The notes beneath the pieces are model-generated. The model was not told the origin of the DNA. It worked only from the letters and a program-made list of their open reading frames with translations, and searched no databases. Shown here piece after piece: positions 46,559-53,101 of a stretch of DNA of 64,000 nt. Position 1 is the stretch's first letter. Each line of letters opens with the position of its first letter. The position numbers and the translations under genes were made by a program. Source of the DNA: Archangium primigenium (GTDB lineage: Bacteria > Myxococcota > Myxococcia > Myxococcales > Myxococcaceae). The stretch spans positions 9,357,224-9,421,223 of the forward strand of contig NZ_JADWYI010000001.1 of the NCBI RefSeq assembly GCF_016904885.1, in the 5' to 3' direction.

Positions 46559-47389
46559 ATGACGGATGTCTGGAAGCGGCTCCTCGCCCGGTGGGCAGGC
46601 GGGTCTCTCGGTGGTGGCTGGGGCGTGGTGCTGGCGGTGGTGGTGGGCGTGCTCGTCCCCGGGCCCGAGGCGGCGGCGCAGATCGTCAACGTGCAGGCGC
46701 TGTTCGACGAGGCCACCGCGCCCATGGGCTTCTCCGGCACGGCGGACCTGTCGCTGGACTGGCGCACGGGCAGCACCCACCTCATCGCCACGCGGCTGCT
46801 CGCCTCGGCGCAGTTGCGCACGCCGCCGCACACGGTGCTGGTGGTGGCGCGGGGCGAGTACAACTTCGCCCGCGACGAGCTGCTGGTGAGCCGCTTCCTC
46901 GAGCACGTGCGCTACCGCTACCGGCTGCTGCCGTGGCTGGCGGTGGAGGCCTTCGCCCAGCACGAGCTGGATGCCTTCCGGCGCCTGCGCGCGCGGGCCC
47001 TGGTGGGCGCGGGCCCCCGCTTCACGCTCTTCAGCCAGGACGAGGCCTCGCTCGTGTTCGGCGTGGCGCTCATGGGCGAGTACGAGCAGTTGCGCCGGGA
47101 TGGCGAGGTGGACGCGGGCCAGGAGCGGTTGGACCCGCGCCTGAGCAGCTACATGCTCGGCCGGGTGAAGCTCGCGCAGAACATGAGCCTCGTGGAAACG
47201 CTGTACGTGCAGCCCCGGCTGACCTCCGTGCGCGACCTGCGCATCCTCAACGAGACCCTGCTCGTGGTGACGCCCAACGCGCGCTTCACCTTCAGCATGG
47301 GCTTCATCGCCGCCTATGACGCCGAGCCGCCCGCCACGGTGTCCCGCCTGGACACCCAGCTGCGCACCTCGCTCGGCGTGAAGTTCTGA
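46559..47389 (+). CDS. Exported DUF481-family protein
   Basis: A 276-residue outer-membrane-type beta-barrel protein. The signal peptide runs to EAAAQ (WGVVLAVVVGVLVPGPEAAAQ), then a DUF481-like repeat of short beta strands: GFSGTADLSLDWRTGSTHLI, VARGEYNFARDELLVSR, RYRLLPWLAVEAFAQHELDAF, MLGRVKLAQNMSLVETLYVQ, ending RTSLGVKF with a C-terminal aromatic as in outer membrane proteins. DUF481 members are little characterised. ATG at 46559 lacks a clear ribosome site. Confidence 0.8.
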   Translation: MTDVWKRLLARWAGGSLGGGWGVVLAVVVGVLVPGPEAAAQIVNVQALFDEATAPMGFSGTADLSLDWRTGSTHLIATRLLASAQLRTPPHTVLVVARGEYNFARDELLVSRFLEHVRYRYRLLPWLAVEAFAQHELDAFRRLRARALVGAGPRFTLFSQDEASLVFGVALMGEYEQLRRDGEVDAGQERLDPRLSSYMLGRVKLAQNMSLVETLYVQPRLTSVRDLRILNETLLVVTPNARFTFSMGFIAAYDAEPPATVSRLDTQLRTSLGVKF

Positions 47390-47397
47390 GCCCCGCG

Positions 47398-47892
47398 TCA
47401 TTTGTCACACGCCACGGAGGCGCACGCGCCCCACATGCCCTTGCGGGCGCGCCGCGCCGATGACTCGAGCGCCTGGAACTCCGAGCGCCGCGTGCCGCCC
47501 GCCGGGGGCACGTAGAGCGTGCACGCGTACCCCTCGTGCACGAGCCGCGTGTTCACCTCCTGGCCCTCCACGCTCACGTACGCGAGCAGCCGCCCATACC
47601 GGTCCGTGCACGCCTCGCCGTAGCTCAACCGCACCCCGCGGCCCTCCACCAGGGAGCGGTTGAACTCGCGCGCCTCGGCGCCAAAGCAGTCGCGCTTGCC
47701 CCCGGTGCTCTCCGGGGTGTCCACGAGCAGGTAGCGCACGCGCTCGCCGCTGTGGAGCACCACCGTGTCGCCATCCACCACGCGCGCCACCACCCCCGCG
47801 CCCGGGCCACACGCCGACTCCGGACCACACCCGCCCAGCAGGACGAGCGCGCCCACGAGCCCTCCCCACCCCCTCGCGCTCACGGTCCACAT
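47398..47892 (-). CDS. Secreted thermonuclease (SNase-like) lipoprotein
   Basis: A 164-residue staphylococcal-nuclease-fold protein. A lipoprotein signal (VGALVLLGGCGPES) precedes the SNase domain (about 35-150): VVDGDTVVLHSGERVRYLL, DTPESTGGKRDCFGAEA, SLVEGRGVRLSY and DRYGRLLAYVSVEGQEV, with the conserved Arg, Asp and Glu positions of the active site. Expected to cleave DNA and RNA outside the cytoplasm with calcium. The start overlaps the lamin-tail gene by 13 bases; it is the last gene of the helix-hairpin-helix/lamin-tail operon. Confidence 0.9.
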   Translation of the reverse strand: MWTVSARGWGGLVGALVLLGGCGPESACGPGAGVVARVVDGDTVVLHSGERVRYLLVDTPESTGGKRDCFGAEAREFNRSLVEGRGVRLSYGEACTDRYGRLLAYVSVEGQEVNTRLVHEGYACTLYVPPAGGTRRSEFQALESSARRARKGMWGACASVACDK

Positions 47893-49055
47893 GGACGGTT
47901 CTCCCCTCCCGGCGTGCCCCGCTCCCCCACGCCCGGCCCGTAGCGGGCGCTCTCGGGCGCCAGGCACCAGCCCACCTCCGGCGCCGCGCGGGGCACCGTC
48001 CGGTGGCGGGGGTCCAGTTGCAGGGACACGCCCGCGACGGACGCGCGGGTCCACGACACCTCGTCGAGCACCTGCCCCTCCAGCGACAGGCGCAGCAGAT
48101 GGAAGCCCGCGGTGTTGCTCACCCCGAAGGAGAAGAGCGCGAGCACCGAGGGCAGGCCGCCATTGCGCGCGGGGTGCTCCTCCCGCGCGAGGACCGCGTG
48201 GGTGCCGGCCCGCATCTCCAGACAGCGCGGCGGCGCGTCGAGCACCGTCCGGCCCGTGCCCTCGTTGGCCAGGGTCACGCCATTGAGGTCCACGTCGCGC
48301 AGCGCATACACCTCCACCCACTCGCCCTGGGCATCCGGCACGGTCCTCGGGTCGGCCATCACCTCGGTGAGCAGCAGATCTCCGGGACGGGGCGGCACCC
48401 GGCTCCGGGTCTCCCCCGTGCGCGGAGACAGGCACGTCCCGGAGAGGCCCGCGTCCGGCGCGGCCCCGGGCGGACACGGCGGGTTCTCGGCCCCGGGACT
48501 CATCCGGAGCCCCCCCTCCGCGGACGCGGGCGAGTCGCACCAGTGCTCGGGCACGTCGTTGTCGACGGCGTCGGGCACGCGCTGGCCATCGAAGATGCGC
48601 GAGACCCCCGAGCGCGCCTTGGCGTAGTGCACCTCGTCCACCACCACCTCGCCGCAGCGCAGGCCGAGGCGCCCGCCCGTGTTCGCCAGCGCGCCCAGGG
48701 CATCGCCATACGCATGGTCCACCGGGGGCGCTGGCGTCCCGGTCCGCACGTCCCCGAGCACCACGTGGCCGCGCGGCTCCACCGGCACGGACGTCTCGAA
48801 GAAGTAGGCCCGCTCCTGAGCCCCGTCCGCGCGCGCCGCGTAGAGCATCAGGCCCCGCAGGTCCACGGCCGCGCGCCCCGGGTTGTACAGCTCCAGCCAC
48901 TCCCGGCCCGTGTCCGTGCCCTCGGGATCCGGCAGGACCTCGGTGATGACGACGTCGCCGGGACGCCACCCCTCGCACGCGGGCAGGTCCGAGAGCGAGG
49001 ACGGCTCGCACGCCACCGCCGCCAGGAACAGTCCCATCCCCAGCACGCGCGTCAT
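47880..49055 (-). CDS. Double lamin-tail domain protein
   Basis: A 391-residue exported protein. The N-terminus has a lipobox-like signal (MGLFLAAVACEPSS). Two lamin-tail (LTD) beta-sandwich domains follow: GDVVITEVLPDPEGTDTGRE then EWLELYNPGRAAVDLRG, and GDLLLTEVMADPRTVPDAQ then GEWVEVYALRDVDLNGVTL. LTDs act as adaptors, and in bacteria they are often joined to secreted nucleases or phosphodiesterases. Translation is coupled: the ATG overlaps the upstream gene stop (4 bases) and its end overlaps the nuclease start. Confidence 0.88.
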   Translation of the reverse strand: MTRVLGMGLFLAAVACEPSSLSDLPACEGWRPGDVVITEVLPDPEGTDTGREWLELYNPGRAAVDLRGLMLYAARADGAQERAYFFETSVPVEPRGHVVLGDVRTGTPAPPVDHAYGDALGALANTGGRLGLRCGEVVVDEVHYAKARSGVSRIFDGQRVPDAVDNDVPEHWCDSPASAEGGLRMSPGAENPPCPPGAAPDAGLSGTCLSPRTGETRSRVPPRPGDLLLTEVMADPRTVPDAQGEWVEVYALRDVDLNGVTLANEGTGRTVLDAPPRCLEMRAGTHAVLAREEHPARNGGLPSVLALFSFGVSNTAGFHLLRLSLEGQVLDEVSWTRASVAGVSLQLDPRHRTVPRAAPEVGWCLAPESARYGPGVGERGTPGGENRPCGP

Positions 49056-51106
49056 GGCACGGCCCCTTCCAGCTCCAAGCGGAACAGGTGCTGCGAGGCG
49101 GCGGCCCGGGCCAGGACGAGCTCGTACCGCGCGCCAACCCGGGCGCCGCTCGCGAGTGACCAGGCGCCTTGGAGCACGGTGCGCAGGGCCTCGGTGGGCC
49201 GCGCGGTGTCCTCGGCGAGCGCGTCGTTCCGCCACCCCACCCGGCCGCTCAGCCGCAGCGCGGGCACCGGCCGCGCCCCCACCTCGCCCCAGGCCTGGCC
49301 TTGTCGGCGCAGACCCCCGGGGCTCTTCGCATGACCGACCCACGCCTGCTGGTACTGCGCCGCCACGCTCCAGGACGGGTCTGGCTCGAACCGCAACCGG
49401 CCGCCCACGACGTGGCGCTCTCCGGAGCACTCGTCCCGCGCGCCCTCGAAGCACAGGCCGGCGCCATTGCGGCCCAGGTCCTTGTTGTGGTGCTCCACCC
49501 ACACGGAGGGCCGCCACGCGGCGAGCGCCAGGGCCTCCACGCGCAGGGAGCCCGCCAGATTCACGACGCGGGGCGCGCCCTCCGCCTGGGTCCACACGTC
49601 CACCTGCCCCACCCAGCGCCAGGCCTCGTCGTCCGTGCGGTGCAGGTAGCGCAGCCGGGCGCCCCTCTCGTCGCGCGCGCGCGAGCCCTCCCACTCGTCG
49701 GCGCTCGCGAGCGGGCGCGCATGGGGATTGTCGAAGCCGCGCCCGTAGTAGCGCAGCGAGCCCTCCCATTGCCGCGCCCGGTCCCCCACGACGACCCGCT
49801 GGAGCGCGCCCCAACCGCCTCCCGCCGCGGTGAGGCTCCGGGCCCCCTCCACGAAGACGTCCACCAGGCCCAGGCCCCAGGCCCCATCCAGGCCCACCGC
49901 CCCATAGCCCCCGCCCGCCGGAAAGCGGGACGCGACCCGGAAGTCGGGCGTCAGGCCCTCCAGGGTCCACACGGGCCGCGCCCCCCAGGCCGTCAGTCCC
50001 AGCCGCGCGCGCGGCGAGAAGCCCACCGCCGCGTGCCCGCCTCCCGCCAGCTCCCGGAAGACATCCGGCAGGGTGCGCGAGACGAAGCGCGCCCGGCCCG
50101 TGGGGCCCACGAGCACCTCGGGCGCCGCGCACTCCCGCGCCGAGGCACAGCGCGTGCGGTCGAACAGCTCGGACGGGGCGAGGCTCCGCGACTGGTACGA
50201 GCCGAAGCCCGTGAAGGACAGGGACACCGCCCCGCCCCGCGCGCGCACGGTGGCCGCCATGCCCCGGAAGCCCTCCGTCCACCCGAAGTCCGGCGTGATG
50301 CGCGCCGCCTCGGGGCCGCACGCCTCCGTCCCCGACAGCAGGCACCGCCGCTCGGGTGCGCCGGGCCAGGAGACGTTCTCGTCGGCCAGGAAGCCATCCG
50401 GGGCCGGGCGGCCCGTGGTGTCGAGCGTCAACCGCTGGCCGAAGCCCACCCGGAACGCCCCCACCAGCACCGAGGCCCCCGGCGAGTCCCAGCGCACGTG
50501 GAAGCGAGGCGGCCGGAGCCCTACTCCCGGCGGCGTCGCCATCAGGGCCCGGCGTCCGGGCACGGACCGCACCCCCGCGAGCCGCCGCCGGGTGAGCGCG
50601 AGCGTGAGACCCGCGCTCAGGCCCCAAGGCCCCTGGCCTCGCGCCTGGAGCAGCAGGGGCGGCACCTCCGCGTCCGCCAGCGCATAGGCGCTCCCCACGC
50701 GAAGGCGTCCGGAGGTGCCCGACGCCCGCGGCGCCTCGTCCACCAGGAAGGGCCGCACCTGGCGCAGCCCCTCGGCGGACAGCACGCCCGCCTCGACCAG
50801 CGCCCGCGCCGGGAAGCCCTCCGGCCGCGTCCGCCGGAAGGCGATCAGCGCGTCCACCTGCGCCCAGGTGAGTCCCGGCAGGGCATACAGGGCCTCGCGC
50901 GAGGCCGTTCGGAGCGACACCCCCGTGCGCAGCAACTCCCGCAGCGCCTCGGCCTCTTCCTCGGGCAGGCGCCCCTCGTCACGCAGCGCGAGCAGGTCCG
51001 CCTCGTCCTCGAGGGGCCGCTCGACGGTGTAAAGCTCCGCGTGCGCCCGGGATGCCCCGAGCCCCGCCCCCCACACGCCCCACAGCAATAGACAGACACG
51101 TCGCAC
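49052..51106 (-). CDS. Helix-hairpin-helix envelope protein with long beta-rich domain
   Basis: About 684 residues with a hydrophobic signal (VRRVCLLLWGVWGAG to AHAE). Residues about 55-105 form a ComEA-like helix-hairpin-helix unit (SLRTASREALYALPGLTWAQ then VDALIAFRRTR) of the kind that binds DNA. The rest (about 130-684) alternates polar and hydrophobic residues with many short strands, ending in FRLELEGAVP, as expected for an outer-membrane barrel. GTG 51106 is proposed as start because the signal begins there; ATG 51190 would add 28 residues. First gene of an overlapping operon with a lamin-tail protein and a nuclease. Confidence 0.75.
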   Translation of the reverse strand: MRRVCLLLWGVWGAGLGASRAHAELYTVERPLEDEADLLALRDEGRLPEEEAEALRELLRTGVSLRTASREALYALPGLTWAQVDALIAFRRTRPEGFPARALVEAGVLSAEGLRQVRPFLVDEAPRASGTSGRLRVGSAYALADAEVPPLLLQARGQGPWGLSAGLTLALTRRRLAGVRSVPGRRALMATPPGVGLRPPRFHVRWDSPGASVLVGAFRVGFGQRLTLDTTGRPAPDGFLADENVSWPGAPERRCLLSGTEACGPEAARITPDFGWTEGFRGMAATVRARGGAVSLSFTGFGSYQSRSLAPSELFDRTRCASARECAAPEVLVGPTGRARFVSRTLPDVFRELAGGGHAAVGFSPRARLGLTAWGARPVWTLEGLTPDFRVASRFPAGGGYGAVGLDGAWGLGLVDVFVEGARSLTAAGGGWGALQRVVVGDRARQWEGSLRYYGRGFDNPHARPLASADEWEGSRARDERGARLRYLHRTDDEAWRWVGQVDVWTQAEGAPRVVNLAGSLRVEALALAAWRPSVWVEHHNKDLGRNGAGLCFEGARDECSGERHVVGGRLRFEPDPSWSVAAQYQQAWVGHAKSPGGLRRQGQAWGEVGARPVPALRLSGRVGWRNDALAEDTARPTEALRTVLQGAWSLASGARVGARYELVLARAAASQHLFRLELEGAVP

Positions 51107-51221
51107 GTGGCGGCGCTCTGCACGAAGGAGACCACCGGGGCCTCCTCCGAGCGCGCCTGGGCCGGGGCGTCCCGACCCCCACGCGTCCATCCAGGCGGCG
51201 GACGCGCGGGAGGGCGCGGAC

Positions 51222-52286
51222 TCAGTTCTTCAGCAGGGTGAAGGTGATGCCCACGGGACGCACGAGCCGCGGATCGGGCGACACCAGCAGGGCGCCCGGC
51301 TTGCCCGACGCGGGCAGGGGCGCGTTGGTGCGGGCATCGAAGCGCAGCACGGCGCCGGGCGCGCCCGAGCCCTCCCGGGAGTCGAAGCCCACCGTGTACA
51401 GCCGCCGCTGGGTGCCAATCACCAGGCCGCCCAGGTTGTTCGTCGTGGGCACCGTGCCCGAGTAGTTCGTGGACAGCGTGGCCTCGAGCGCCCCCGTCGC
51501 CAGGTCATAGCGGCGGATGTCGTTGGCGAAGTCGCTGACGAACAGGTCGCACTCGCCGGAGGCGCTCACGCAGTCCGGGCCGAACACGAGCCCGAGCAGG
51601 CTGATGTAGCCCGCGCCCGCGGGAGACAGCTCGGGCTGCTCCACGAACACGGTGGCCGCGCGGGTGCGCGGGTCATAGCGCAGCACCTGGCTGGGCAGGC
51701 CCGGGAAGGTGGGCGCGCCGTTGACGGCGATGGTGCCCTCGGTGCTCACGTACAGGAAGCCATCGGGGCCGAGCGCCAGGGCTCTGGGGCCGTTGAGGCC
51801 GCCGGGCTGGCCGTTGCCGGTGGCGAACACGTCCACGAAGGCGCCCGTCTTGCCGTCGAAGCGCAGGAGCTGGTCGCTCAGGAAGCTGCTCACGTAGAGC
51901 AGGCCGTCCGGACCGAACAGCAGGCCGCAGGGCCGCAGCATGCCGTTGCCCGAGGCGAACGTGCCGAGGAACTGGCCCGTCTGGCCGTCGTAGCGGAGCA
52001 CCGCGGAGTTGGCCAGGGTGTCGCCGCTGGCCACGTACAGGGCGCCATCCGGACCGAACACGAGCGCGTTGGGCGCCACGAGTCCACCGCTGCCCGCGGG
52101 GATGAAGTCGCCGAGGAACTCGCCCGTCTCCTCGTCCAGGCGCACCACGTTGTGGGCCCGGGTGTTGCCCACCAGCAGCACGCCCCGCTCGGACTTCGCG
52201 GGAGGCGGCGTGCTGTCACAGGCGGGGCCCAGCAGACACAGCGACGACAGGACGAGGAACGAGGCGAAGCGGGAGAGTGGGTGCAT
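51222..52286 (-). CDS. Beta-propeller (NHL/SMP-30-like) lipoprotein
   Basis: A 354-residue exported protein with a signal peptide (SRFASFLVLSSLCLLGPAC, lipobox-like cysteine). The mature protein consists of repeats of the type LRYDGQTGQFLGTFA, GLLFGPDGLLYVSSFLS, LALGPDGFLYVSTEG, the NHL/SMP-30 blade pattern, giving a six-bladed propeller. No catalytic metal residues of SMP-30 lactonases are obvious. Start ATG 52286 used rather than upstream codons because the signal peptide begins there. Confidence 0.8.
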   Translation of the reverse strand: MHPLSRFASFLVLSSLCLLGPACDSTPPPAKSERGVLLVGNTRAHNVVRLDEETGEFLGDFIPAGSGGLVAPNALVFGPDGALYVASGDTLANSAVLRYDGQTGQFLGTFASGNGMLRPCGLLFGPDGLLYVSSFLSDQLLRFDGKTGAFVDVFATGNGQPGGLNGPRALALGPDGFLYVSTEGTIAVNGAPTFPGLPSQVLRYDPRTRAATVFVEQPELSPAGAGYISLLGLVFGPDCVSASGECDLFVSDFANDIRRYDLATGALEATLSTNYSGTVPTTNNLGGLVIGTQRRLYTVGFDSREGSGAPGAVLRFDARTNAPLPASGKPGALLVSPDPRLVRPVGITFTLLKN

Positions 52287-52330
52287 GGCGCGCACCCTAA
52301 TGAAGGACGCGCCGCCCCGGCACCCCGCGC

Positions 52331-53101
52331 TCAGCCCACGCTCGGGCTGCCCTGTTGCATCTTGCCCAGCAGCGGATGCGCCGCGGGCTTCTCGGCCTTC
52401 TCGGGCGGCGGACAGGAGACGGGCTCGATCTTCATCTCCCGGGCGAGCCGGCGGCCCAGGAAGATGCCCAGGCCCAGGCTCAGCACCAGACCCACGATGG
52501 AGGCCACCGTCGTCCACGTCTTGCCCTGGCTCAGCGAGCTGCCGAAGAAGGTGGTGAGCAGCGTGCCCGGGATGCTGCCCACGGCGGCGCCCAGCGCGAG
52601 CGGCAGGTAGCGCGCCCCGGAGGCCGACGCCACCGCCAGCATCACGTCCCCGGGGATGACCGAGTTGATGCAGGCGAGGAACCCCACCTGGAAGCCATGC
52701 TGACGCGCGGCGCGCTGGAGCCCCTCATGGCGCTGTCCCGCCAGACGCTTCATGGGCCCCTGACCAAAGCGGCTCGCCAGCAGGTGGATGAGCGCCGTGG
52801 ACAGGAGACTGCCGAGCAGCGAGTAGACGGTTCCCAACAGGGTCCCGAAGAGGATTCCACCCACGGCGGCGAAAAGCTGTCCGGGCAGAAACGCCACGGG
52901 CCGCACGCCCAACAGGAGCACGAAGGCCAGGGGCGCCCAATGCCCGAGCGGCCGCAAGTAGGTCGACAGTGTCCTCTGGTCCAATAGCTCCGGGCCCAGC
53001 AGACGCACGGCCACGAGAATGCCCACGGAGATACACATGGGGGCGAGCAGCTTCAGCCCCAGCTTCCATTTCCCATCCCCGACACGCTCACGCACGGACA
53101 T
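52331..53101 (-). CDS. VTT-domain membrane protein (TVP38/TMEM64 family)
   Basis: A 256-residue integral membrane protein of the VTT/DedA superfamily. Hydrophobic helices bracket the conserved re-entrant motif LPGQLFAAVGGILFGTLLG with SLLSTALIHLLASRFG and the later IPGDVMLAVASASGARYLPL, VGSIPGTLLTTFFG. Members are implicated in lipid transport or envelope homeostasis. ATG 53101 has no strong ribosome site. An in-frame extension to 53281 exists, but it contains non-hydrophobic, non-family sequence. Confidence 0.85.
   Translation of the reverse strand: MSVRERVGDGKWKLGLKLLAPMCISVGILVAVRLLGPELLDQRTLSTYLRPLGHWAPLAFVLLLGVRPVAFLPGQLFAAVGGILFGTLLGTVYSLLGSLLSTALIHLLASRFGQGPMKRLAGQRHEGLQRAARQHGFQVGFLACINSVIPGDVMLAVASASGARYLPLALGAAVGSIPGTLLTTFFGSSLSQGKTWTTVASIVGLVLSLGLGIFLGRRLAREMKIEPVSCPPPEKAEKPAAHPLLGKMQQGSPSVG

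Follow-up and report, generated by a model that had tools for sequence, protein, structure and literature searches.

A conserved myxobacterial gene unit joining a predicted helix-hairpin-helix barrel protein to lamin-tail and nuclease lipoproteins

How does DNA pass the outer membrane, and what use do predatory soil bacteria make of the DNA of lysed prey? Both are open questions, and a small operon of Archangium primigenium bears on both. It lies in a stretch of 64,000 nucleotides (hereafter the window; contig NZ_JADWYI010000001.1, positions 9,357,224 to 9,421,223) of a 9.49 Mb genome and consists of three overlapping genes on the minus strand (51106-47398 of the window). They encode a protein with an N-terminal helix-hairpin-helix (HHH) domain and a predicted β-barrel, a lipoprotein with lamin-tail domains (LTD), and a lipoprotein of the staphylococcal nuclease (SNase) family, referred to as SN. 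We asked whether these genes belong together and what their products may do.

A first-pass annotation had placed three overlapping genes at 47398-51106 and had read them as a ComEA-like motif joined to a likely outer-membrane barrel, a protein with two lamin-tail domains, and a secreted thermonuclease lipoprotein. The gene structure was confirmed on the minus strand, with the LTD gene overlapping the preceding HHH/barrel gene by 4 nt (ATGA) and the SN gene overlapping the LTD gene by 13 nt; these overlaps suggest that the three genes share one transcript. The HHH/barrel gene starts with GTG at 51106, and an in-frame ATG also exists upstream at 51190. The barrel protein of an Archangium locus is 57% identical to that of the window.

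The neighbourhood survey that the first-pass annotation had named as a check was performed on 81 Myxococcota loci, comprising 61 from the family of the window (60 regions that we picked among the matches, and L039) and 20 from outside it (L, G, g and f denote our numbered loci, genomes, genera and families). Each fetched locus covered at most about 18 kb, and L039 and L043 are two views of a single place. The triad was found to be conserved, as the barrel, LTD and SN genes lay on one strand in 67 of the 81 loci, and contig ends may account for nine of the 14 exceptions (L049, L082, L083, L084, L087, L088, L134, L135, and L145).

The same linkage was observed as joint presence and absence across 96 genomes of the family. 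The barrel/HHH protein was found in 82 of them, some as fragments, and SN in 76, never without the HHH gene (the SN search gave 77 matches, of which that of G013 was its SN2 gene, a second nuclease gene described below). Both genes were present in 76 genomes, HHH without SN in six, SN without HHH in none, and neither in 14, corresponding to a Fisher's p of about 2e-12 that ignores kinship; the absences cluster in genera (seven of them in g7). The six genomes with a barrel and no SN match were G013 and G074 (contig ends), G084, G085, G086, and G088. LTD orthologues, defined as matches above 120 bits with a paralogue in G001 left out, were also found in 82 of the 96 genomes; 81 genomes held both HHH and LTD, one HHH only, one LTD only, and 13 neither. 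Chance and annotation artefact were considered and rejected, as the three genes co-occur and stay linked. Thus, the three genes are one conserved unit, which is mostly kept and lost jointly.

The distribution searches covered Myxococcota genomes. Phylum-wide, 125 of 195 genomes were matched, many of them by short HHH-only matches to ComEA-like genes. Matches covering the barrel were, by our reading, present in 22 genomes outside the family (four in f8, two in f10, seven in f11, one in f16, and eight in f26-f31), and 20 of these 22 places were fetched. Similar HHH-barrel proteins may also occur in Bacteroidota. The coordinates of the unit in the window are listed in the table.

Table. Features of the three-gene unit in the window
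Feature	Position	Strand	Description or basis
HHH/barrel protein gene	51106-49052	minus	GTG start; 684 aa
N-terminal ComEA-like HHH domain, acidic	~residues 24-125	minus	family profile and model
N-terminal domain folded alone (residues 22-130), helical	50717-51043	minus	best of five models, pLDDT 80.4
Predicted transmembrane β-barrel (~residues 130-684)	49052-50719	minus	strand alternation and C-terminal Phe of relatives
LTD lipoprotein gene	49055-47880	minus	391 aa; two lamin-tail domains
SN (SNase lipoprotein) gene	47892-47398	minus	164 aa

The HHH domain follows a signal peptide, as judged by eye. Pfam HHH_3 scored 12.7 bits on the window copy alone, under its cut-off of 27, and a profile built from 31 sequences of the protein family (A1) matched Geobacillus ComEA with an E-value of 1.1e-7. 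Among the A1 members, 22 of the 31 matched HHH_3 at E ≤ 1, and no other Pfam family matched more than four. The isolated domain was modelled from two sequences (the window copy and one relative); the best of five models reached a predicted local distance difference test score (pLDDT) of 80, and the remaining models ranged from 73 to 45. The first match of the model in the PDB was ComEA (8dss), with a Foldseek probability of 1.00 but an E-value of 0.097, and no PDB match fell under an E-value of 0.001. Superposition on 8dss gave a VIA Z of 8.2, tied with that of Tex, and a root mean square deviation of 1.9 over 64 residues. The kinship of the HHH domain with ComEA proposed in the first-pass annotation is therefore supported by the family profile and by the predicted fold.

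The remainder of the protein is predicted to form a β-barrel. Residues 130-684 contained 16 strongly alternating segments at a threshold of 1.6, compared with 5.2 ± 2.0 (maximum 12) in 200 shuffles. The excess narrowed at a threshold of 1.3 (20 segments vs 11.3, maximum 20), and at the loosest threshold of 1.0 the barrel part was like the shuffles (23 vs 20.2, maximum 30). No alternation excess at 1.6 was observed in the LTD, SN, SN2, or N-terminal HHH parts. A C-terminal Phe was found in 58 of 62 barrel members. The family thus shows the features of a bacterial outer-membrane β-barrel, namely a signal peptide, alternating strands, and a C-terminal aromatic residue, the last being a property of the family and not of the window copy, which is among the four exceptions and ends in GAVP (49052-49090, minus strand). 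A1 contains six conserved cysteine columns (residues 255, 263, and 552 in all 31 members, 320 and 326 in 29, and 560 in 26), which probably form three pairs. The A1 profile had six PDB matches, all within the HHH part and none to the barrel part; the barrel is thus a family with no sequence match in the PDB.

For the two lipoproteins, the domain assignments were clear. Pfam LTD scored 60.6 bits on the window protein (cut-off of 34.3) in two stretches, as anticipated, and eight LTD matches were found in the whole window genome. Pfam SNase scored 79.5 bits on SN (cut-off of 21), which is the sole SNase found in that genome. In 16 aligned members, D42, R53, E61, and R101 were invariant and D58 nearly so; we take D42, D58, R53, E61, and R101 to hold the catalytic and calcium-site roles of the S. 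aureus nuclease. SN is thus a member of the staphylococcal (thermo)nuclease family whose catalytic residues are present, in agreement with the thermonuclease lipoprotein that had been predicted. All LTD proteins examined are acidic (net charge of -17 in the window copy and -17 to -36 across the 15 members aligned), which is more in keeping with a scaffold than with a DNA clamp and speaks against a simple binding to DNA.

Among the proteins delimited by script, 44 of 60 LTD, 45 of 53 SN, and 16 of 18 SN2 proteins matched a strict lipobox pattern. In the misses that were displayed (8 of 16 LTD, 8 of 8 SN, and 2 of 2 SN2), a cysteine stood near the expected place, with an off-pattern residue or a late start. 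The pattern is not specific, as it also matched 13 of the 62 barrel proteins inside their signal peptides. By the +2 rule, the residue after the lipobox cysteine governs the sorting of lipoproteins to the outer membrane. Asp directly followed the cysteine in 1 of the 44 LTD matches and in none of the SN matches, and this near-absence points to an outer-membrane location of the LTD and SN lipoproteins.

In eight loci of genus g6 (L050-L056 and L060), the SNase frame had no stop after the domain and ran on for some 210 to 1,130 codons or more, in some cases to the end of the locus; in L052 and L060 it ran into histidine-kinase-like sequence, as judged by eye. Variable sites at the three codon positions numbered 25/20/59 in the SNase part and 127/84/112 in the extension, so that translation in this frame, as a genuine fusion would need, is not supported.

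What would such proteins do together? The reading that we put first, and to which we give about an even chance, is that the products of the operon form a single outer-membrane complex for the capture and cutting of extracellular DNA, mainly to supply a predator or saprophyte with phosphorus and nucleotides. Its observed base is the gene structure, the domain identities, the linkage in two gene orders, and the joint presence and absence. The barrel protein would span the outer membrane, exposing disulphide-bonded loops to the outside and keeping its N-terminal HHH domain on the periplasmic side, because a domain ahead of a barrel is periplasmic; this topology would fit import. The SNase lipoprotein and the acidic LTD lipoprotein would be anchored in the outer membrane and attach to the barrel, with LTD as a protein scaffold, not as a DNA clamp. 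SNase would cut DNA while it is retained at the surface or as it comes out of the barrel, as its catalytic residues suggest. Fragments would then cross the barrel and be handed on by the HHH domain, and SN2, where present, would degrade them further.

Several observations weigh against this capture-and-cut reading. The activity, location, and interaction of the three proteins are all predicted. The full-length two-sequence AlphaFold model reached a pLDDT of only 30, too low to show the barrel, and a predicted barrel need not be a channel. Five loci depart from the triad with no contig end to account for it: L092, L098, and L099 carry HHH and LTD and no SN, L143 holds only the HHH protein although 2.5 kb of upstream sequence is covered, and L149 (5228-7165) has a barrel relative lacking any recognisable HHH domain, beside LTD and no SN. 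Genome G010 keeps a lone LTD gene (L150:5769-7532), with neither barrel nor SN, beside a cluster that by eye resembles an efflux pump. From L149, the barrel-LTD pair may be the core of the unit. The HHH domain itself is also altered. The Gly-hydrophobic-Gly hairpin of HHH domains contacts the DNA backbone, and in nearly all of the 62 members this Gly-x-Gly is changed to Gly-x-Thr or similar (GLTY or GLTW in 46 members, GLTW in the window copy). The second Gly was kept in one member (GVGA), and two had no motif readable by the script pattern. The N-terminal domain is acidic, with a net charge of -7 in the window copy (residues 24-125) and of -3 to -19 in 31 of 31 members.

In one rival reading, neither HHH nor LTD contacts DNA, the barrel serves to anchor or export the lipoproteins, and the substrate of the nuclease is RNA, or RNA as well as DNA. 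The altered hairpin, the acidity of both the N-terminal domain and the LTD proteins, and the persistence in L149 of a barrel protein beside LTD without HHH all speak for it. Acidity by itself is compatible with DNA binding, since the ComEA core taken as a reference also has a slightly negative net charge (-2), and SNases cleave DNA and RNA alike; we consider this reading quite improbable. The altered hairpin and the HHH-less protein of L149 warn, in any case, that the HHH domain may have another role.

The main rival is natural transformation. In this reading, the operon supplies the outer-membrane part of a transformation machine: DNA enters through the barrel and is drawn in by the periplasmic HHH domain as it would be by ComEA, SNase makes the entry cuts, and ComEC passes a strand through the inner membrane. 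The HHH domain is ComEA-like, and ComEC was found in 92 of the 96 family genomes. The distribution of the unit was not tied to that of ComEC, as ComEC was retained by 13 of the 14 genomes that lack the HHH gene (all such genomes of g7, g8, g2, g14, and g21, and G010), and G045 lacked both. Three incomplete genomes (G009, G013, and G084; 79-88% complete) had operon genes and no ComEC match. Separate ComEA-like genes also exist, such as the 128-aa frame at C1:6262855 in G000, and inspection of neighbouring genes, which was not an exhaustive family scan, revealed no recognisable competence gene. SNases leave short products, which are poor substrates for transformation. On the other side stands an archaeal precedent, which also counts against the nutritional reading: in Methanococcus maripaludis, the lipoprotein thermonuclease MMJJ_16440 is required for transformation, and the OB-fold protein MMJJ_13020 surfaced in the same transposon screens (PMC10133366; for this and the other papers cited, statements refer to the portions of text that were available). 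Their counterparts in the unit would be its SNase lipoproteins and the SNase-OB lipoprotein of many deeper lineages. The retention of ComEC in 13 of the 14 genomes without HHH weakens a strict competence reading and puts digestion for nutrition ahead, and the genome data as a whole lean weakly to nutrition; we regard a role in transformation as possible, if on the unlikely side.

The surroundings of the unit bear on a further rival, in which the nuclease is an envelope barrier or remodels the matrix, destroying phage, plasmid, or biofilm DNA at the surface or in the periplasm with no feeding. A nuclease tethered close to the outer membrane and accompanied by domains for handling DNA would suit this purpose equally well. 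Outer-membrane lipoproteins face the periplasm by default, and the complex could do the same. The unit keeps a fixed place near the window, unlike a mobile defence gene: ATP-grasp and esterase genes adjoin it in 39 of the 40 loci L039-L078 and in none of the 21 deeper loci L079-L099. We consider a barrier or remodelling role quite improbable. A mobile or island gene is likewise not favoured, given the fixed place in those 39 of 40 loci and the lack of any plasmid or viral contig match. Genomes without the unit show what remains at the site. In L158 (G041, genus g7), the genes of both flanks lie about 1.1 kb apart and the operon is gone, and in L154-L157 only the ATP-grasp/esterase side was matched. 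Such lineages serve as natural controls.

A bolder proposal extends the capture-and-cut reading. Here, the unit would be a Myxococcota-wide outer-membrane DNA import machine without a pilus secretin, in which a new barrel family conducts SNase-made fragments, LTD is the scaffold, and the barrel-fused periplasmic HHH domain ratchets the fragments in; the DNA of prey would thereby serve predators as food and at times be inherited by them. We hold this extended form to be rather unlikely. The operon is in either case a small and strongly linked myxobacterial gene set on which both of the opening questions can be addressed.

Beyond what the first-pass annotation had described, two further genes belong to the unit in deeper lineages. 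The first, SN2, is a lipoprotein of about 375 residues found in many of these lineages, with an SNase domain in 12 of 12 and an OB-fold match in 10 of 12 proteins scanned, and its nuclease residues D65, R77, D82, T83, E85, and R155 were invariant in the 12. In rotated loci SN2 comes ahead of LTD; in the others it lies between HHH and LTD. It was missing near the window (loci of genera g1, g3, g5, g6, and g19) and from the whole window genome, as well as from L092, L098, L099, and several loci of other families. The second is a short LTD lipoprotein gene in f11 and f16 (six loci), whose copy in L132 scored 23.7 bits with Pfam LTD, below the cut-off. Two gene orders were observed, HHH-(SN2)-LTD-SN and (LTD)-(SN2)-LTD-SN-HHH. 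Among the 81 loci, HHH-LTD-SN was found 39 times, HHH-SN2-LTD-SN 16 times, LTDshort-SN2-LTD-SN-HHH five times, and LTD-SN-HHH four times; HHH-LTDshort-SN2-LTD-SN, SN2-LTD-SN-HHH, and LTD-SN-HHH with a cut LTD were each found in a single locus. A simple history would start from four or five ancestral genes, SN2 having disappeared in the lineage of the window.

Other genes were found beside the operon. In the window, a DUF481 gene (67.2 bits; 46559-47389, plus strand), of a family that we take to be of outer-membrane type, is convergent to the operon, and a gene for a β-propeller-like protein (51222-52424, minus strand) lies directly upstream, with similarity to the ScyD/ScyE family under the threshold (42.7 of 80 bits). 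Clustering of neighbours returned mostly antisense frames, and a protein with a TonB_2 domain and a small methyltransferase-like gene were then scanned. The TonB_2 gene lies upstream on the same strand in L085 (3034-4209) and L086 (3776-4966), with relatives in 11 deeper family loci, and the methyltransferase-like gene was found in nine.

The unit as such, which the first-pass annotation had not recognised as a described system, was not described in the literature searched either, a search whose coverage excluded most subscription papers and bioRxiv preprints. By term search, the main text of a transcriptome study of M. xanthus (PMC9548883) mentions neither HHH nor LTD and reports five upregulated nucleases, the identities of which are not given there, and the available text on Bdellovibrio nucleases (PMC7925074) mentions no SNase, thermonuclease, or lamin.

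The closest known counterpart is Hvo_1477 of Haloferax volcanii, which carries a lipobox, an SNase, and an LTD in one protein and is reported to be important for DNA metabolism in an organism that uses DNA mainly as a phosphorus source (PMC3929857). Here, too, lipobox, SNase, and LTD occur in one extracytoplasmic functional unit, in the form of two adjacent lipoprotein genes. Hvo_1477 is, in contrast, one fused protein of an archaeon with no outer membrane, and its domain table lists no barrel or HHH (PMC3929857), whereas the myxobacterial parts are separate genes accompanied by a barrel protein and sometimes by a second SNase. Halobacterial ComA/Hlac_1867 is similarly a probable lipoprotein with a lipobox, in which an LTD adjoins a presumed nucleic-acid hydrolase domain, but that domain is a metallo-β-lactamase of another fold, and the text available mentions no barrel or HHH (PMC5118699). 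The secreted DNases of halophiles bear either an LTD or an HhH add-on (PMC4486849). In the DNase of Thioalkalivibrio sp. K90mix, a secreted nuclease likewise works with a DNA-binding HhH, present as a duplicate domain; it differs in being a single protein with a catalytic domain of the DNase I family, in which the enzyme and not a barrel carries the HhH (PMC4486849).

Other systems share one component each. ComEA (8dss and 2duy) has sequence and fold in common with the myxobacterial HHH domain but is a small envelope protein, whereas the myxobacterial domain stands ahead of a predicted barrel and has an altered hairpin, in a genome that also carries separate ComEA-like genes. MMJJ_16440 is alike in being a lipoprotein thermonuclease in an extracellular DNA process; it is archaeal, its role in transformation has been shown, and no barrel or LTD is reported in the text available (PMC10133366). 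RA0C_RS02645 of Riemerella is an HHH protein needed for transformation, with the HHH at residues 236-301 and a predicted periplasmic location; as far as its description goes, it looks like an architecture other than the HHH-barrel (PMC8459023). What is already known is therefore the domains and the principle of secreted nucleases assisted by LTD or HhH, while the novelty appears to lie in the outer-membrane arrangement in separate genes, in the family of barrel proteins, and in a linkage that spans the phylum.

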